A DNA stretch of 32,544 nt from positions 37,184 to 69,727 of the forward strand of contig PNBO01000217.1 in assembly GCA_003136095.1 (NCBI GenBank), read 5' to 3'. Source of the stretch: Myxococcales bacterium. Its GTDB lineage: Bacteria; Myxococcota_A; Polyangia; Fen-1088. The notes under the pieces were generated by a model. That model ran no database searches, was not told the origin of the DNA, and saw only the letters and a program-made list of their open reading frames with translations. Positions 25,715 to 32,544 of this stretch are shown here, one piece after another. The position numbers were made by a program, and so were the translations under genes. Within the stretch, counting starts at the first letter, position 1. Each line of letters opens with the position of its first letter.

Positions 25715-26071
25715 CTAGCTCCGACGGTGGCGAGCTCGCGGCGAGACTATCTGCCCGCGGCGAAAACTGGCCACGGCGTCTTCCGCCTTGCCGGAGATGC
25801 CGGTGACGACCCGAATCCCAAGTCGCTCCGCGTTCGGCAGATAGGCGCGGTTGAAGGCTCCGCAAAGCAGCGTCCGCACCCCCATGGCAGCAAGGTGCGC
25901 GATGCGGCGTGGAAGCCAGGGCTCGCCCAGTCCAACCACGTTGCGCCGGATCTCCCGCCCATTCTCGAAGCTGACCACGAGGACCTGCTCGGCAAAGCAG
26001 AACCTGGGCGAGACCTCCTCACCGAAGAGGGCGATGGCAACACATGTCGTCACGGCTGCGGCCAAGCTCAA
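25715..26071 (-). CDS. NifX-like (dinitrogenase iron-molybdenum cofactor family) protein
   Basis: A 118-residue protein, second member of this family in the window. It has ALFGEEVSPRFCFAEQVLVV (the HFG region is changed to RFCF), GVRTLLCGAFNRAYLPNAERLGI and VTGISGKAEDAV. The divergence at the ligand loop suggests it no longer binds the same cofactor or uses Cys instead of His. It starts with TTG at 26071, overlapping the stop of the sigma-54 activator (TTGA), so both are made from one transcript; a GTG at 26053 is an alternative start. The setting suggests it modulates the activator or carries a cofactor for it. Confidence 0.75.
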   Translation of the reverse strand: MSLAAAVTTCVAIALFGEEVSPRFCFAEQVLVVSFENGREIRRNVVGLGEPWLPRRIAHLAAMGVRTLLCGAFNRAYLPNAERLGIRVVTGISGKAEDAVASFRRGQIVSPRARHRRS

Positions 26072-27525
26072 GCAAGCCGCGTACCGCGTTTACCCGAGCG
26101 CCCAGCCGAGACTAGGCCGTGCTCGCGCATGCGACGCCAGAGCGTGTTGCGGCCGATGCCAAGGCCGCGCGCGGTCGCGGTGCGGCTCCAGCCGTGGGCC
26201 GCCAGGGCCTCGCGCAGCTTCTGCGCCACGGGGTCGGCGGTGGCTCTCTCGTTCGCTGCCTTGCCCGACGCCTGCAACACGATTCTCTCCGACGGCCTCC
26301 GCCGGCTCGCCAGCAAGTCCCCATCCATTGCAGCGCGCTCCTTGGCGCGCAGGATCTCCGTCGGCAGATGGCCGAGCTCGATGCGGTGCTCGTGGCACAG
26401 GACGAAGGCCCTCTCGATCAGGTTCTGTAGCTCGCGCACGTTGCCGGGATAGTCGTACTCGCAGAGCGCGGCCATGGCCCTCGGCGCCACCTCGCGGATC
26501 GGTTTTCCGGTCTTGAGCGCCTGCAGACGAACGAAATGGTCCACCAGGAGCGGAACGTCCCCGCGCCGTTCCCGCAGTGGGACGAGCGCGATGGGCACGA
26601 CCCTGATCCGGTAGTAGAGATCCTGGCGGAACTTGCCCTCGGCCACCATGGCCGCCAGATCGCGGTTGGTGGCGGCCAGCACGCGCACGTCGACCTTCAC
26701 CGGCCGCGAGCTGCCCAGGGGCTGGACCTCGCCTTCTTGCAGCACGCGCAGCAGCTTGAGCTGGAACGCCGGGGTGATATCGCCGATCTCATCGAGCAGG
26801 ATGGTGCCGCCGTCGGCCAGCACGAAGTGGCCGGGCTTGTCGCGGCGGGCGTCGGTAAAAGCGCCCCGCAGATAGCCGAACAGCTCCGATTCCAGCAAGC
26901 TGTCGGGAAGCGCGCCGCAGTTCACGCGCAGGAAGGGCTTGTCCCGCCGGGCGCTGAGACTGTGGATCGCGCTCGCCACCAGCTCCTTGCCGGTGCCGCT
27001 CGGCCCCTCGATGAGCACGGGCGCGTCCGAGGCCGCCACGTCGGGCAGCAGCTGGAACAGCTCTTTCATGGCCGGGCTGCCGCCCACGATGTTCTCGAAC
27101 GAGCCCTGGTTTTTCAGCTCGTTGCGCAGGCTCTCGATGTCGGAGAGATCGCGGAAGATCTCCACACCGCCGAGCAGCCGGCCACCGCTGCGCAAGACCG
27201 CGGTGGAAACCGCGATGGGCACGGGCAGCATCGAAGCATTGAGCACGTCGATACGCACGTCGCGCAGCGGTCGCCCCGTGTCGAGCGTCTCCCGCAGCGC
27301 GCAGCCGCGCTGGCAGATGCTGGCGCGAAAGACCTCGTAGCACTTCTTGCCCACGGCCTGACGACGGGAGAACCCGGTGATCCGTTCGGCCTCGGCATTG
27401 AACGAAGTCACCCTGAAGTCCTGGTCGACGGTGAAGACCCCCTCGTGGATGCTGTCGAAGATCAGCGAATGCAACGCCTCCGGTGGTGGTGGCCCGGATG
27501 CGTCTGGCTTGCGTGACCTGATCAT
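26068..27525 (-). CDS. PAS-domain sigma-54-dependent transcriptional activator (enhancer-binding protein)
   Basis: A 485-residue activator. A PAS domain (about 20-135) contains a Cys cluster CYEVFRASICQRGC (Cys62, Cys71, Cys75) that could bind Fe-S or sense redox. The AAA+ domain (about 145-380) has Walker A GPSGTGKE (174-181), Walker B TILLDEIGD (241-249) and arginine-finger region FRQDLYYRIRVVP. The sigma-54 contact loop reads GAFTDA (221-226), not the canonical GAFTGA. A Fis-type helix-turn-helix ends the protein (WSRTATARGLGIGRNTLWRRM). It should act on the -24/-12 promoters nearby. Its start lies 11 bp from an inverted repeat (27536-27562), so it may also control itself. Confidence 0.93.
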   Translation of the reverse strand: MIRSRKPDASGPPPPEALHSLIFDSIHEGVFTVDQDFRVTSFNAEAERITGFSRRQAVGKKCYEVFRASICQRGCALRETLDTGRPLRDVRIDVLNASMLPVPIAVSTAVLRSGGRLLGGVEIFRDLSDIESLRNELKNQGSFENIVGGSPAMKELFQLLPDVAASDAPVLIEGPSGTGKELVASAIHSLSARRDKPFLRVNCGALPDSLLESELFGYLRGAFTDARRDKPGHFVLADGGTILLDEIGDITPAFQLKLLRVLQEGEVQPLGSSRPVKVDVRVLAATNRDLAAMVAEGKFRQDLYYRIRVVPIALVPLRERRGDVPLLVDHFVRLQALKTGKPIREVAPRAMAALCEYDYPGNVRELQNLIERAFVLCHEHRIELGHLPTEILRAKERAAMDGDLLASRRRPSERIVLQASGKAANERATADPVAQKLREALAAHGWSRTATARGLGIGRNTLWRRMREHGLVSAGRSGKRGTRLA

Positions 27526-27535
27526 GTCTCACAAG

Positions 27536-27570
27536 TGGAACATAACGGTCCATTTTGTTCCAGATTGAAA
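27536..27570. promoter_or_regulatory. Candidate enhancer/operator: TGGAACA-N13-TGTTCCA plus a third half-site
   Basis: TGGAACA (27536-27542) and TGTTCCA (27556-27562) form a 7-bp perfect inverted repeat. A second imperfect partner for the latter, TGAAACA, follows three bases later. The set lies between the divergent activator gene and the thioesterase gene, with its centre about 65 bp upstream of the -24 element of the thioesterase sigma-54 promoter. That is where an upstream activating sequence would be expected. The bound protein is most likely the activator encoded next door. The site also adjoins that gene's start codon, so autoregulation is plausible. Confidence 0.55.
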
Positions 27571-27612
27571 CACAATCCATGGTCGGGATGCCGCCCCTTG
27601 CCCCTCGCTGCC

Positions 27613-27628
27613 CGGCACGCATATTGCT
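27613..27628 (+). promoter_or_regulatory. Sigma-54 promoter (-24/-12) for the thioesterase gene
   Basis: The sequence is CGGCACG-N4-TTGCT, matching TGGCACG-N4-TTGCW at 11 of 12 fixed positions, with GG (27614-27615) and GC (27626-27627) exactly 10 bp apart. Transcription should start near 27639, leaving a leader of about 65 nt before ATG 27703. That makes the GTG at 27643 an unlikely start. Confidence 0.75.
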
Positions 27629-28118: not shown

Positions 28119-28134
28119 TGGCAAGCGAGTTGCA
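28119..28134 (+). promoter_or_regulatory. Sigma-54 promoter for the secreted 155-residue protein gene
   Basis: TGGCAAG-N4-TTGCA matches the consensus at 11 of 12 fixed positions, with GG (28120-28121) and GC (28132-28133) 10 bp apart. Transcription should start near 28145, 45 nt before the ATG. No strong inverted repeat was found at the expected upstream distance, only a single TGGAAC half-site near 27955 inside the thioesterase gene. Confidence 0.75.
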
Positions 28135-29358: not shown

Positions 29359-29659
29359 CGGCGGCTCGTCAGCCAAGATTCAGGAGACGAGCGCAGGTCA
29401 CGACGACCTCGCCGCACACCCCCGACATGAAGCGTGGCGCGCTCTCGAAACGCGCGCTGGCGACCACCGCTTTCCTGGTGCGCGTGGACAATCGGGGTCA
29501 CGTGGCCAATCGTCATGTTTTGCATTCGGTCACGGTCGGACAGAGTAGCCCTGACTCGTTGATGTCCGGCACCCCGAGCCTCGCTGGCACTGGCGATGCA
29601 CGACCGAAAGGAAACCGGCCTTCACATGACCCCGGAAATTCGCTACCCGGTGAAGGAAG
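29359..29659 (+). other. Intergenic region carrying a sigma-54 promoter
   Basis: No gene was recognised here. Frames that cross it have no ribosome sites and no family pattern. It contains the -24/-12 promoter at 29585-29600. About 75 bp upstream of it are CCAATCG (29506-29512) and CAATCG (29489-29494), which resemble one half of the palindromic enhancer found at 30373 and 31854. The match is weak, so enhancer function is conjecture. Confidence 0.5.
29585..29600 (+). promoter_or_regulatory. Sigma-54 promoter for the 90-residue exported protein gene
   Basis: TGGCACT-N4-ATGCA, with GG (29586-29587) and GC (29598-29599) 10 bp apart, agrees at 10 of 12 fixed positions. The expected start is near 29611, 49 nt before the ATG at 29660. 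Confidence 0.65.
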
Positions 29660-30003: not shown

Positions 30004-30252
30004 CTACCTCTCGCTGACCGTGGCGAGCCCGAGAGCCGCAGCGTGCATACGCTTACGGACTTCGGCGACTGGATCCCTTGCCGGTGAATCCAAGGTGGCA
30101 CTAGCCATCTCCCGCTGGGCTTGCCTGGTTTCCTTTTCGGCCGCGGCAAGGTGAGCCTCCGCGCTCATGTCGTCCGGCCGGACCTGATGGGTGCATCCAA
30201 CCGCGTAGGCACAGCTCCACAACGCGAAAATCGAGCATCGACTTGGCTTCAT
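30004..30252 (-). CDS. Small lipoprotein
   Basis: An 82-residue lipoprotein: signal MKPSRCSIFALWSCAYAVGC with Cys20 as lipid site, then a short helical region rich in Ala, Glu and Arg (MSAEAHLAAAEKETRQAQREM). It may form a coiled coil, and no family is recognised. ATG 30252 is chosen because GGAGGGAAGAG precedes it; upstream codons in the frame look like noncoding sequence. It diverges from the larger lipoprotein gene at 30487, and both have sigma-54 promoters placed symmetrically around a shared palindrome. Confidence 0.8.
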   Translation of the reverse strand: MKPSRCSIFALWSCAYAVGCTHQVRPDDMSAEAHLAAAEKETRQAQREMASATLDSPARDPVAEVRKRMHAAALGLATVSER

Positions 30253-30295: not shown

Positions 30296-30311
30296 TGCAT
30301 TCGTCGTGCCA
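30296..30311 (-). promoter_or_regulatory. Sigma-54 promoter for the 82-residue lipoprotein gene (minus strand)
   Basis: On the minus strand TGGCACG-N4-ATGCA agrees at 11 of 12 fixed positions, with GG (30309-30310) and GC (30297-30298) 10 bp apart. The centre of the shared palindrome (30379.5) is 70 bp upstream of its GG. Expected transcription start is near 30285. Confidence 0.8.
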
Positions 30312-30368
30312 CGGCCCAGATGGGCCCCAGCCGAATGGCCTGTCGTCCCCAGCGAAGGGGTAGGGCCT

Positions 30369-30401
30369 ATTTCCCAATCGATTGGGGAATTCCTCCCATT
30401 T
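30369..30401. promoter_or_regulatory. Palindromic enhancer-like element, copy 1 (shared by two divergent sigma-54 promoters)
   Basis: The core CCCAATCGATTGGG (30373-30386) is a perfect 14-bp palindrome centred at 30379.5. The 33-bp block matches 31850-31882 at 28 positions. Its centre is 70 bp from the -24 GG of both the minus-strand promoter (30309) and the plus-strand promoter (30449), so it sits exactly midway. It is probably the binding site of a sigma-54 activator. The sequence differs from the TGGAACA/TGTTCCA site at 27536, so the activator may be a different one. Confidence 0.75.
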
Positions 30402-30447
30402 CATAGTTATGGGACGGAGACGACGAGTCCGGTGGTATGCCCAACCT

Positions 30448-30463
30448 TGGCAGGGTATATGCA
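30448..30463 (+). promoter_or_regulatory. Sigma-54 promoter for the His-rich lipoprotein gene
   Basis: TGGCAGG-N4-ATGCA agrees at 10 of 12 fixed positions, with GG (30449-30450) and GC (30461-30462) 10 bp apart. Transcription should start near 30474, so the leader is only about 13 nt and just includes the ribosome site (GGGAAGGAG). Confidence 0.75.
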
Positions 30464-30486
30464 GCGAGGACCGGGAAGGAGTAGCC

Positions 30487-31353
30487 ATGGGATCAGAGTG
30501 CATACGTCTCGGCGCGCTCGTGGGCGTCGTCGTCTCGATCTGCGGCTGCGCCGCCAGCACGAAACAGAGGCCGGTGGCCCGCACGGCGGCCGACACCGTG
30601 CCCGAGGACGCCTTCGTCGCGGATGTTCTGCGGCATCATCGACATCACCATTTTGGCGGCACCTTGTTGCTCATCACGATGAGCCTCGACACGTTGGGAT
30701 TGCCAGCCGACGAGCAACTCCGCATTGAAAAGATTCAATCGGACCTGATCGACAAGATGCGCCCCGCCAGTCAGGCCGAACGGTCCGTCGTGGCGCGGCT
30801 CGCCGACGGGGTTTCCGCGTCCGAGATCGACCGCACTCAGGTCGACGCAGCGCTAGCAGAGCTCGCGACCGCATCCGCCGCCATGCACGACGCCTCGATC
30901 GGTGAGCTGAATCGACTCCACGACGCGCTCACACCGCCAGAGCGAGCGGCACTGGTAGATAAGCTGGATGCCCATTGGGAGCTGTGGAAACAAGCCAACA
31001 GCGGCGAGCGAAGCCAGCTCGCGACCATCGGCCAGGAGATCGGACTGACGGCCCCGCAGATGGAGAAGGTCAGGAGGGAGCTTGCGGCAACGACCTCGGA
31101 CTCGCCGCTGCGCAAGGGCGAAGTCGAAGCCCACCTGCGAAACTTCGGCAAGGCATTCCAGGCCAACGACTTCGATGCCAGGAGGCTGCTCGGCGCCGCC
31201 AGCGCGAATCGTCAAATGGCTGAGTGGGGCGCGAGCCGGCTTGTGTCGTTTTGTCAGGCAGTCAATCCCGTGCTCAACGACGAACAGCGCCGTACGCTCG
31301 TGGCTCTACTGCTGGAACATCTCAATCATGACGAAGGCGGAGCGAAGGAGTAA
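30487..31353 (+). CDS. Lipoprotein with His-rich start and Spy/CpxP-like helical repeats
   Basis: A 288-residue lipoprotein. The lipobox is SICGC (Cys21). A His cluster (LRHHRHHHFGG, about 49-58) could bind metal. The rest is alpha-helical, with repeated hallmarks of LTxxQ/Spy-type periplasmic proteins (LPADEQLRIEKIQSDLIDKM, LTPPERAALVDKLDAHWE, LTAPQMEKVRRELA, LNDEQRRTLVALLLEHL). Such proteins act as chaperones or metal sensors in the periplasm. The ATG at 30487 has GGAAGGAG upstream. It is co-directional with the next lipoprotein gene, only 7 bp away, and both lie behind the sigma-54 promoter. Envelope or metal stress is the likely theme. Confidence 0.82.
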   Translation: MGSECIRLGALVGVVVSICGCAASTKQRPVARTAADTVPEDAFVADVLRHHRHHHFGGTLLLITMSLDTLGLPADEQLRIEKIQSDLIDKMRPASQAERSVVARLADGVSASEIDRTQVDAALAELATASAAMHDASIGELNRLHDALTPPERAALVDKLDAHWELWKQANSGERSQLATIGQEIGLTAPQMEKVRRELAATTSDSPLRKGEVEAHLRNFGKAFQANDFDARRLLGAASANRQMAEWGASRLVSFCQAVNPVLNDEQRRTLVALLLEHLNHDEGGAKE

Positions 31354-31360
31354 TTCCATC

Positions 31361-31696
31361 ATGCGAAGATGTTGGCCTGACTTCCGACCCAGGCGGCTGG
31401 CGATCTTGACGTTTGGCCTTTCCCTCGGTGGCTGCTTCGCCGACGCCGGATACGCGGTCACCGTGGATGGTGCCTATGTGGATGAGCCGCCACCCGGTTT
31501 CATTGCCACCGCTCCCCCCTTCTACTACGAGGGGCGTCCCACCTACTGGTATGGCGGCCATTGGCACTACCGCGATGCGGAGCATTGGAGCCACTACCAT
31601 TCCGAGCCAGCCCCTCTGCGGGGTTACCGGATGAACATGGGCGGTCCCCGACGCGCTCCGCCATTCTACGAGCAATCCCCACGAGGCCGTCGATAG
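31361..31696 (+). CDS. Small lipoprotein rich in aromatic residues and His
   Basis: A 111-residue lipoprotein with lipobox LSLGGC (Cys25). The mature part is short, with many Tyr, Trp, Pro and His residues (PPFYYEGRPTYWYGGHWHYRD, EHWSHYHSEP) and an Arg-rich end. No domain is recognised. The Tyr/Trp/His pattern resembles small exported proteins that often accompany envelope stress genes. The ATG at 31361 lies 7 bp after the preceding stop, with GAAGGAG upstream, so the two are one transcription unit. The stop codon is part of the hairpin at 31694-31710. Confidence 0.8.
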   Translation: MRRCWPDFRPRRLAILTFGLSLGGCFADAGYAVTVDGAYVDEPPPGFIATAPPFYYEGRPTYWYGGHWHYRDAEHWSHYHSEPAPLRGYRMNMGGPRRAPPFYEQSPRGRR

Positions 31697-31710
31697 CCTG
31701 GACCAGGCTA
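31694..31710 (+). terminator. Hairpin at the end of the two-gene lipoprotein unit
   Basis: TAGCCTG (31694-31700) and CAGGCTA (31704-31710) form a perfect 7-bp stem with a 3-nt loop that begins at the stop codon. No T-run follows, so termination is plausible but weak. Confidence 0.4.
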
Positions 31711-31849
31711 GCGTCGTCCCGGTTTCGCGGTGGTGGCGATTCGCTTAACGCTGGACTCCTCACCAAAGAAGGCAGGAGATGTTCCATTGATAAGCTGTTC
31801 CACCAACAACCGCGTAGGCACCCCTACTTGTGAGGCAGGTGAAAGGAGA

Positions 31850-31882
31850 ATTTCCCGATCGATTTGGGAATCCGTCCCGTTT
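31850..31882. promoter_or_regulatory. Palindromic enhancer-like element, copy 2
   Basis: This 33-bp block matches copy 1 (30369-30401) at 28 positions. The inner palindrome is ATCGAT with flanks CCC and GGG, centred at 31860.5. The centre is 71 bp upstream of the -24 GG of the next promoter (31931), the same spacing as in copy 1. It is probably bound by the same activator. Confidence 0.72.
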
Positions 31883-31929
31883 CTGCATCGACCCCGCTCC
31901 ACGAGGGACAGCACATCTGGCGGTCACCC

Positions 31930-31945
31930 TGGCACAGAGTTTGCT
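31930..31945 (+). promoter_or_regulatory. Sigma-54 promoter for the partial lipoprotein gene at the window end
   Basis: TGGCACA-N4-TTGCT agrees at 11 of 12 fixed positions, with GG (31931-31932) and GC (31943-31944) 10 bp apart. Expected start near 31956. Confidence 0.8.
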
Positions 31946-32044: not shown

Positions 32045-32544
32045 ATGATCCTGACTAGGAGACTGCTCCCAATTGTTCTTTGTTGTGCCGGGTTTGCGGT
32101 CTTGCTCGTTGGCTGTGCGGTAAGTCGCGCGGTAGGAGCAGACGCAACCATACCTTCAGCCGCTCAATACGCCGCTATCGCAGACGACGTTTGCACGGGA
32201 ATGCCCGCCAAGGAGCGGGCATTGGGACTTCTCGCATATCGGGAGGACATCGCGCGCGTTGCGCCGCTCTTTGACGATGGCCCATTGGGAAAGGTTGAGT
32301 ATAGTGATAGGGGGGCTGTTATCAGGCTACGCGCGACGCCAGGCATGTCCGTGCCGTGGCTCGAACGGGTCAATCGTTGCCACGCCGCGCTGGTAGCGTC
32401 CGGGCGGTTGGTCGGCAAAGAGTCGAGGGAGGATCCATTTCTCGTTCCTGGCGCGACCCTTTGGGCGGCCGAGGTCTACGGTGGCTACTACGATCTGTCG
32501 GTTAGGAGCGCCGATGACGCCTCAGCGGTGGAAATCCTGCGGCG
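32045..32544 (+). CDS. Lipoprotein of unknown function (3' end outside window)
   Basis: At least 166 residues are visible, open to the right edge. A lipoprotein signal (VLLVGC, Cys24) leads to a mixed alpha/beta sequence: IADDVCTGMPAKERALGLLAY, then RGAVIRLRATPGMSVPWLERVNRCHAAL, then DPFLVPGATLWAAEVYGGYYDLSVRS. Two Cys residues in the mature part may form a disulfide. I recognise no family. The ATG at 32045 has a perfect AAGGAGG (32031-32037). It lies behind the sigma-54 promoter and copy 2 of the palindromic element, so it should be coregulated with the lipoproteins at 30004 and 30487. Confidence 0.85.
   Translation, partial: MILTRRLLPIVLCCAGFAVLLVGCAVSRAVGADATIPSAAQYAAIADDVCTGMPAKERALGLLAYREDIARVAPLFDDGPLGKVEYSDRGAVIRLRATPGMSVPWLERVNRCHAALVASGRLVGKESREDPFLVPGATLWAAEVYGGYYDLSVRSADDASAVEILR

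Follow-up and report, generated by a model that had tools for sequence, protein, structure and literature searches.

Toward the end of the 32,544-nucleotide stretch of Myxococcales DNA analyzed here (the window), a short palindrome is repeated close to three predicted sigma-54 promoters, one copy lying between two divergent promoters. The initial annotation proposed that it is an enhancer for a sigma-54 activator encoded outside the window. The questions raised by this locus are whether the repeat is such an enhancer, what its binding unit is, and which activator would recognize it. The home genome, 6.03 Mb in size, is a draft assembly of 456 contigs with a completeness of 84.75% and a contamination of 6.73%, and two of its contigs are relevant here: C294, which carries the window, and C373.

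Three promoters and a repeated block

The promoters are of the TGGCA-N7-TGC type with the fixed spacing of GG and GC, and were scored with a consensus matrix that we wrote ourselves from general knowledge of sigma-54 promoters.

30296-30311, minus strand: -24/-12 promoter TGGCACGACGAATGCA, GG at 30310, score 17.3, predicted to drive an 82-aa lipoprotein-like gene
30448-30463, plus strand: -24/-12 promoter TGGCAGGGTATATGCA, GG at 30449, score 15.2
31930-31945, plus strand: -24/-12 promoter TGGCACAGAGTTTGCT, GG at 31931, score 18.9, the best on the contig

The GG of the minus-strand promoter had been placed at 30309 and is corrected here to 30310. Only five -24/-12 elements in the window reach a score of 15, these three included, and Markov sequence of the same composition contains about five sites per Mb scoring at least 15.

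The palindrome CCCAATCGATTGGG at 30373-30386 does recur in slightly changed form at 31854-31868, and the 33-base blocks starting at 30369 and 31850 agree, as originally counted, at 28 of 33 positions, whereas after shuffling the 2.6 kb region 100 times no 33-mer matched another at more than 24. Beyond roughly 35 bp the flanks are unlike each other, and the confinement of similarity to the block indicates a conserved site rather than a larger duplication.

The palindrome was, however, misread as the binding unit. It is the junction of two adjacent sites, running from the right half of one through a spacer into the left half of the next. The true repeated unit is longer, a tandem pair of inverted repeats GGGA-N5-TCCC, and the three copies on C294 all consist of GGGA-N5-TCCC, nine bases, and GGGA-N5-TCCC. 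Each operator is 13 bp long, with centers 21-22 bp apart within pairs (22 or 23 bp at site C of C373, below); 22 bp is two helix turns, a usual arrangement for paired activator sites. This rereading of the unit was prompted by a match in a distant genome, described below.

30363-30397: enhancer copy 1, operators GGGCCTATTTCCC (30363-30375) and GGGAATTCCTCCC (30385-30397), spacer AATCGATTG; operator centers 30369 and 30391, midpoint 30380, half-site match 15/16
31844-31878: enhancer copy 2, operators AGGAGAATTTCCC (31844-31856) and GGGAATCCGTCCC (31866-31878), spacer GATCGATTT; midpoint 31861, 70 bp from the GG at 31931, half-site match 15/16
C294:32069-32103 (L006:14070-14104): third copy, a perfect 16/16 operator pair, with its 19-bp core at C294:32078-32096

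From the palindrome center to the GG of the three promoters the distances are 69.5, 69.5, and 70.5 bp, reported earlier as 70, 70, and 71; from the operator-pair midpoint they are 70, 69, and 70 bp, so that copy 1 does lie midway between the divergent promoters. With up to three mismatches, the 19-bp core is found at three places in the home genome, all on C294. The third copy, 5.1 kb to the left of the window and outside the view of the initial annotation, lies between convergent genes, one a small gene that follows a DsbD/thioredoxin-type cluster and the other a receiver-domain gene. Within 260 bp of it no -24/-12 element reaches a score of 5; the nearest, TGGCACCCATCGTGCA, is 520 bp off, before the receiver-domain gene. 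This copy could be a decoy, a distant enhancer, or a relic.

The genes downstream of the window promoters encode predicted lipoproteins, their lipobox-like sequences having been judged by eye and not by a dedicated tool.

30004-30252, minus strand: P0003, small predicted lipoprotein of 82 aa (AYAVGC), putative target of the minus-strand promoter
30487-31353, plus strand: P0004, predicted lipoprotein of 288 aa with a Metal_resist domain (Spy/ZraP-like) and an HHRHHH motif
31361-31696, plus strand: P0002, predicted lipoprotein of 111 aa, second gene of the operon
32045-32544, plus strand: P0005, predicted lipoprotein (LLVGC), truncated at the contig end

P0003 has no match in Pfam. P0004 matches PF13801 above the cut-off (E 2.7e-9; 37.7 bits, cut-off 29.2), and a weak match to Spy was obtained with the profile of its family (E 0.004).

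A candidate regulator on another contig

The second activator that had been postulated outside the window now has a strong candidate in a response regulator encoded on C373, where the operator pair is found again.

C373:2856-4220, minus strand: NtrC-family response regulator
C373:4213-5733, minus strand: histidine kinase
C373:5921-5954: site A, pair 15/16, spacing 21, midway between divergent units
C373:2205-2238: site B, pair 16/16, spacing 21, 71.5 bp from TGGCATGTAGGTTGCT, before a predicted lipoprotein gene
C373:1960-1994: site C, spacing 22 or 23, 71 bp from TGGCACGCTGAATGCC, before a Band-7 lipoprotein gene

The response regulator has the domains of the NtrC family: PF00072 (receiver), PF00158 (sigma-54 interaction AAA+), and PF02954 (Fis-type HTH), the last at 22.1 bits with a cut-off of 22. 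The kinase-regulator unit is divergent from genes for an outer-membrane channel, an adaptor, and an RND efflux protein, and the -24/-12 elements on the two sides of site A, at 72.5 and 71.5 bp, are weak (scores 9.9 and 10.8). The three operator pairs on C373 would serve four -24/-12 promoters at 71-72.5 bp; the other two of these, together with the three in the window, score 13.5-18.9. From pair midpoint to GG, the seven home promoters give 70, 69, 70, 72.5, 71.5, 71.5, and 71 bp, a span of 3.5 bp.

A search with flexible spacing across 1.69 Mb (28% of the home genome) found five pairs scoring at least 15/16, and every one of them belongs to C294 (the three copies) or to C373 (sites A and B). 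For four of these, promoters lie 69-72.5 bp away. Apart from site C, no other pair scoring at least 13 in the 1.69 Mb had a promoter-like element at 50-90 bp, and 1 Mb of Markov sequence contained no pair that reached 15. Across the sequence scanned, the motif is uncommon and associated with -24/-12 elements, which runs against a frequent motif that bears no relation to them. The pair-like match at C294:34793 (14/16) was judged to be due to chance; by our reading it falls within the start of a BON-domain gene, and a possible promoter is located 169 bp upstream of it. PRC-barrel and BON-domain genes (L006:15206-16980) have a possible -24/-12 element, CGGCATAGGACTTGCT, at about L006 position 16980.

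Conservation in a distant genome

Whether the motif is conserved depends on the unit that is sought. In 39 relatives the exact palindrome gave nothing beyond chance; the same was true of the palindrome combined with a promoter, both among 288 further members of the class and across 84,980 species genomes. These searches gave an early impression of a lineage-only motif, which was dropped once the unit was reread as an operator pair. The pattern TTCCC-N9-GGGAA occurs at eight places in the home genome, five of them without a promoter, and looked chance-like; because the spacing is fixed, this pattern does not pick up those C373 sites that have N8. The operator pair, in contrast, is present both at the C373 promoters and in G186, a 13 Mb genome of the same class but another family.

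When 317 genomes were searched for the 27-bp block, three mismatches being allowed, four foreign matches were returned. Three of them fall within long open frames and have no promoter. The fourth, in G186, reads GGGAAAATTTCCC-CATCGGTCA-GGGAATTTTTCCC, with TGGCATGCGCGCTGCA 64 bp away. This first G186 pair is a 16/16 match; on one side of it is a TolC/adaptor/RND efflux operon, and on the other a kinase gene followed by an NtrC-family response regulator gene. Five genes are orthologous between this locus and C373 by identity and order: the kinase (45.6%), the RND protein (68.2%), the adaptor (53.1%), the outer-membrane channel (49.2%), and the response regulator (55.6-55.8% over its full length). 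Among about 30 home EBPs the C373 regulator is the best match of the G186 regulator, the next being at 45%, and it is also the best match in the HTH region.

L211:3694-3727: second G186 pair, 15/16, GGGAATTTTTCCC-AGCCGATC-GGGAATTCTTCCT

This second pair lies 63.5 bp from the strong -24/-12 promoter TGGCACGCGTCCTGCT and precedes another apparent RND efflux operon (L211:920-3459), which appears to be an independent target of the same regulator. The two clear G186 promoters are thus at 64 and 63.5 bp from the pair midpoints; a third, on the minus strand toward the first efflux operon, is weak (score 8.7) and at 75 bp. Operators, promoters, geometry, and rarity can be read directly from the DNA, as can linkage to the regulator genes in two genomes, and the four further promoters on C373 and the two clear ones in G186 support the enhancer proposal in outline. 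A UAS is characterized by dyads that lie some 80-150 bp upstream of the start and are shared by the targets of a single activator, and the pairs fit this description.

Alternative explanations

The regulator nearest to hand is the PAS-AAA-HTH activator of the window, and an obvious alternative is that the pair is an enhancer bound by this adjacent protein.

26068-27525: PAS-AAA-HTH activator gene, the only EBP gene found on the contig, 2.8 kb from copy 1
27536-27628: TGGAAC-N15-GTTCCA site, center 27549, 65 bp from the promoter CGGCACGCATATTGCT (27613)

Its position and its being the sole EBP gene found on C294 speak for it, but the divergent promoter of this activator, between its gene and a thioesterase gene, carries that different repeat, as the initial annotation had recognized. 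The same-genus genome G002 keeps the activator (85% identical), the TGGAAC-N15-GTTCCA site, and the promoter, yet has neither the palindrome at up to two mismatches nor the 27-bp block at up to three. TGGAAC-N15-GTTCCA is likely to be the local activator's own enhancer, and the palindrome would therefore belong to another regulator, which makes binding of the pair by the local activator improbable. Elsewhere in this part of the window, -24/-12-like sites at 28119-28134 and 29585-29600 precede genes for small exported proteins and have no operator pair; the stretch holding the 28119-28134 site has no alignment in G002.

It is equally improbable that the pair is an operator for a repressor or a non-sigma-54 regulator that lies upstream of these promoters by happenstance. 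Such a reading would accommodate the third copy, which has no sigma-54 promoter, but not the seven promoters at 69-72.5 bp, the position of the pair upstream of the -24/-12 elements without overlap, or its co-occurrence with an NtrC-family response regulator gene in two genomes. The near identity of the block at three places, one of them between convergent genes, could also suggest a repeated element such as a transcription terminator, an RNA element, or a small mobile element. This is less probable still, given that copy 1 is placed among divergent promoters, that the likeness ends at the block edges, and that sites A and B of C373 keep only the half-sites and their spacing. A coincidental geometry can be practically dismissed: with the Markov frequency of strong promoters given above, three would have to share a single distance to a block that 6 Mb contain only three times, and the arrangement repeats on C373 and in G186. 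The geometry, which the initial annotation called hard to explain by chance, is far beyond chance.

Model for the enhancer and its regulon

We consider it probable (about 0.85) that the repeat is a two-site enhancer bound by the phosphorylated C373 response regulator, which would open the sigma-54 promoters of an envelope/efflux regulon. We infer binding, phosphorylation, activation, and the nature of the signal from the features described above. The sensor kinase would phosphorylate the regulator, which would then occupy both GGGA-N5-TCCC sites, roughly at positions -82 and -104 relative to the start of transcription. The oligomer on the pair would contact RNA polymerase-sigma54 across the near-fixed interval of about 70 bp (69-72.5 bp from pair midpoint to the -24 GG) and open the promoter. 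Owing to its symmetry, a single pair can act on promoters to either side, and the divergent units predicted to be so controlled are P0003 and P0004-P0002 in the window and the kinase-regulator and RND efflux units on C373. The predicted targets are mostly envelope proteins: P0003, P0004, P0002, P0005, two proteins encoded on C373, and the RND pump. The tentative assignment of P0004 to the C373 regulator is based on its operator. The combination of a Metal_resist protein (Spy/ZraP-like), a Band-7 lipoprotein, and a tripartite RND pump makes a metal- or envelope-stress response the most likely function.

The window targets may have been recruited recently or have arrived from elsewhere, as homologs of P0004 in several relatives have no -24/-12 element close upstream. 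A protein resembling P0002, as read by eye, follows the P0004 homolog in several relatives, and P0003 has only weak matches there. Named relatives of P0004 are mostly from Myxococcales assemblies, and its closest homolog, at 64%, is in another family. The home genome encodes three P0004-type proteins, on C265, C284, and C294; the first two are 43-45% identical to P0004 and have no close sigma-54 promoters. This pattern suggests that the window cluster may be acquired, or that C294 might be foreign, and in a draft of 456 contigs C294 and C373 could in principle derive from different organisms. The 85% match of the window activator in G002 argues that C294 belongs to the home genome, and the shared operator argues against a separate origin of the two contigs. 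P0005 has two paralogs on contig C31 (52-54% identity) with no sigma-54 promoter nearby, and no link between the truncated P0005 gene and C373 was found.

In NtrC-type enhancers, such as those of glnA and nif, two dyad sites stand in tandem and in helical phase before a -24/-12 promoter and are bound by an AAA+ activator oligomer, and one UAS can serve divergent promoters. The pairs described here share the tandem dyads upstream of -24/-12 elements, but differ in the GGGA-N5-TCCC sequence of 13 bp per site and in an unusually constant distance to the promoter. The best NCBIfam score for both the C373 regulator and its kinase is with AtoSC, although below the cut-off (421 vs 714 bits for the regulator), and no fatty-acid genes were seen on C373.

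The closer functional parallel is ZraPSR (HydHG) of the Escherichia coli zinc/envelope stress response, which likewise combines an NtrC-family response regulator and a kinase with sigma-54, and activates a periplasmic chaperone-type protein together with its own operon. E. coli ZraR is reported to bind upstream of zraSR and zraP (PMC7657598). The zraP-type gene is divergent from the kinase-regulator genes in that system, whereas both C373 and G186 have an RND operon in this position; in the home genome the Metal_resist gene and the kinase-regulator operon are on different contigs. Because the C373 proteins fall far below the NCBIfam cut-offs for ZraR (358.6 bits, cut-off 760) and ZraS (159.4 bits, cut-off 479), the system is Zra-like in its working but is not filed as Zra. 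It is best read as a ZraPSR-like sigma-54 two-component envelope/efflux regulon.

A more tentative proposal, which we regard as possible but doubtful, is that the regulator represents an activator class with a near-rigid, lineage-set geometry, in which one distance is kept across the targets of a genome, 69-72.5 bp here and 63.5-64 bp at the clear G186 promoters. Free DNA looping is the usual assumption for sigma-54 enhancers; if the rigid geometry were true, one bound oligomer would fire two divergent promoters without it. In either case, sequence alone has yielded a proposed regulator, with its operator and a regulon of seven promoters, for an uncultured and presumably myxobacterial lineage. 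This regulon links unknown lipoproteins with an RND pump, and a role of these lipoproteins in metal or envelope stress is likely. The operator provides a testable site for an unnamed branch of the NtrC family, and its constant distance offers a natural series on how strictly sigma-54 enhancers must be placed.
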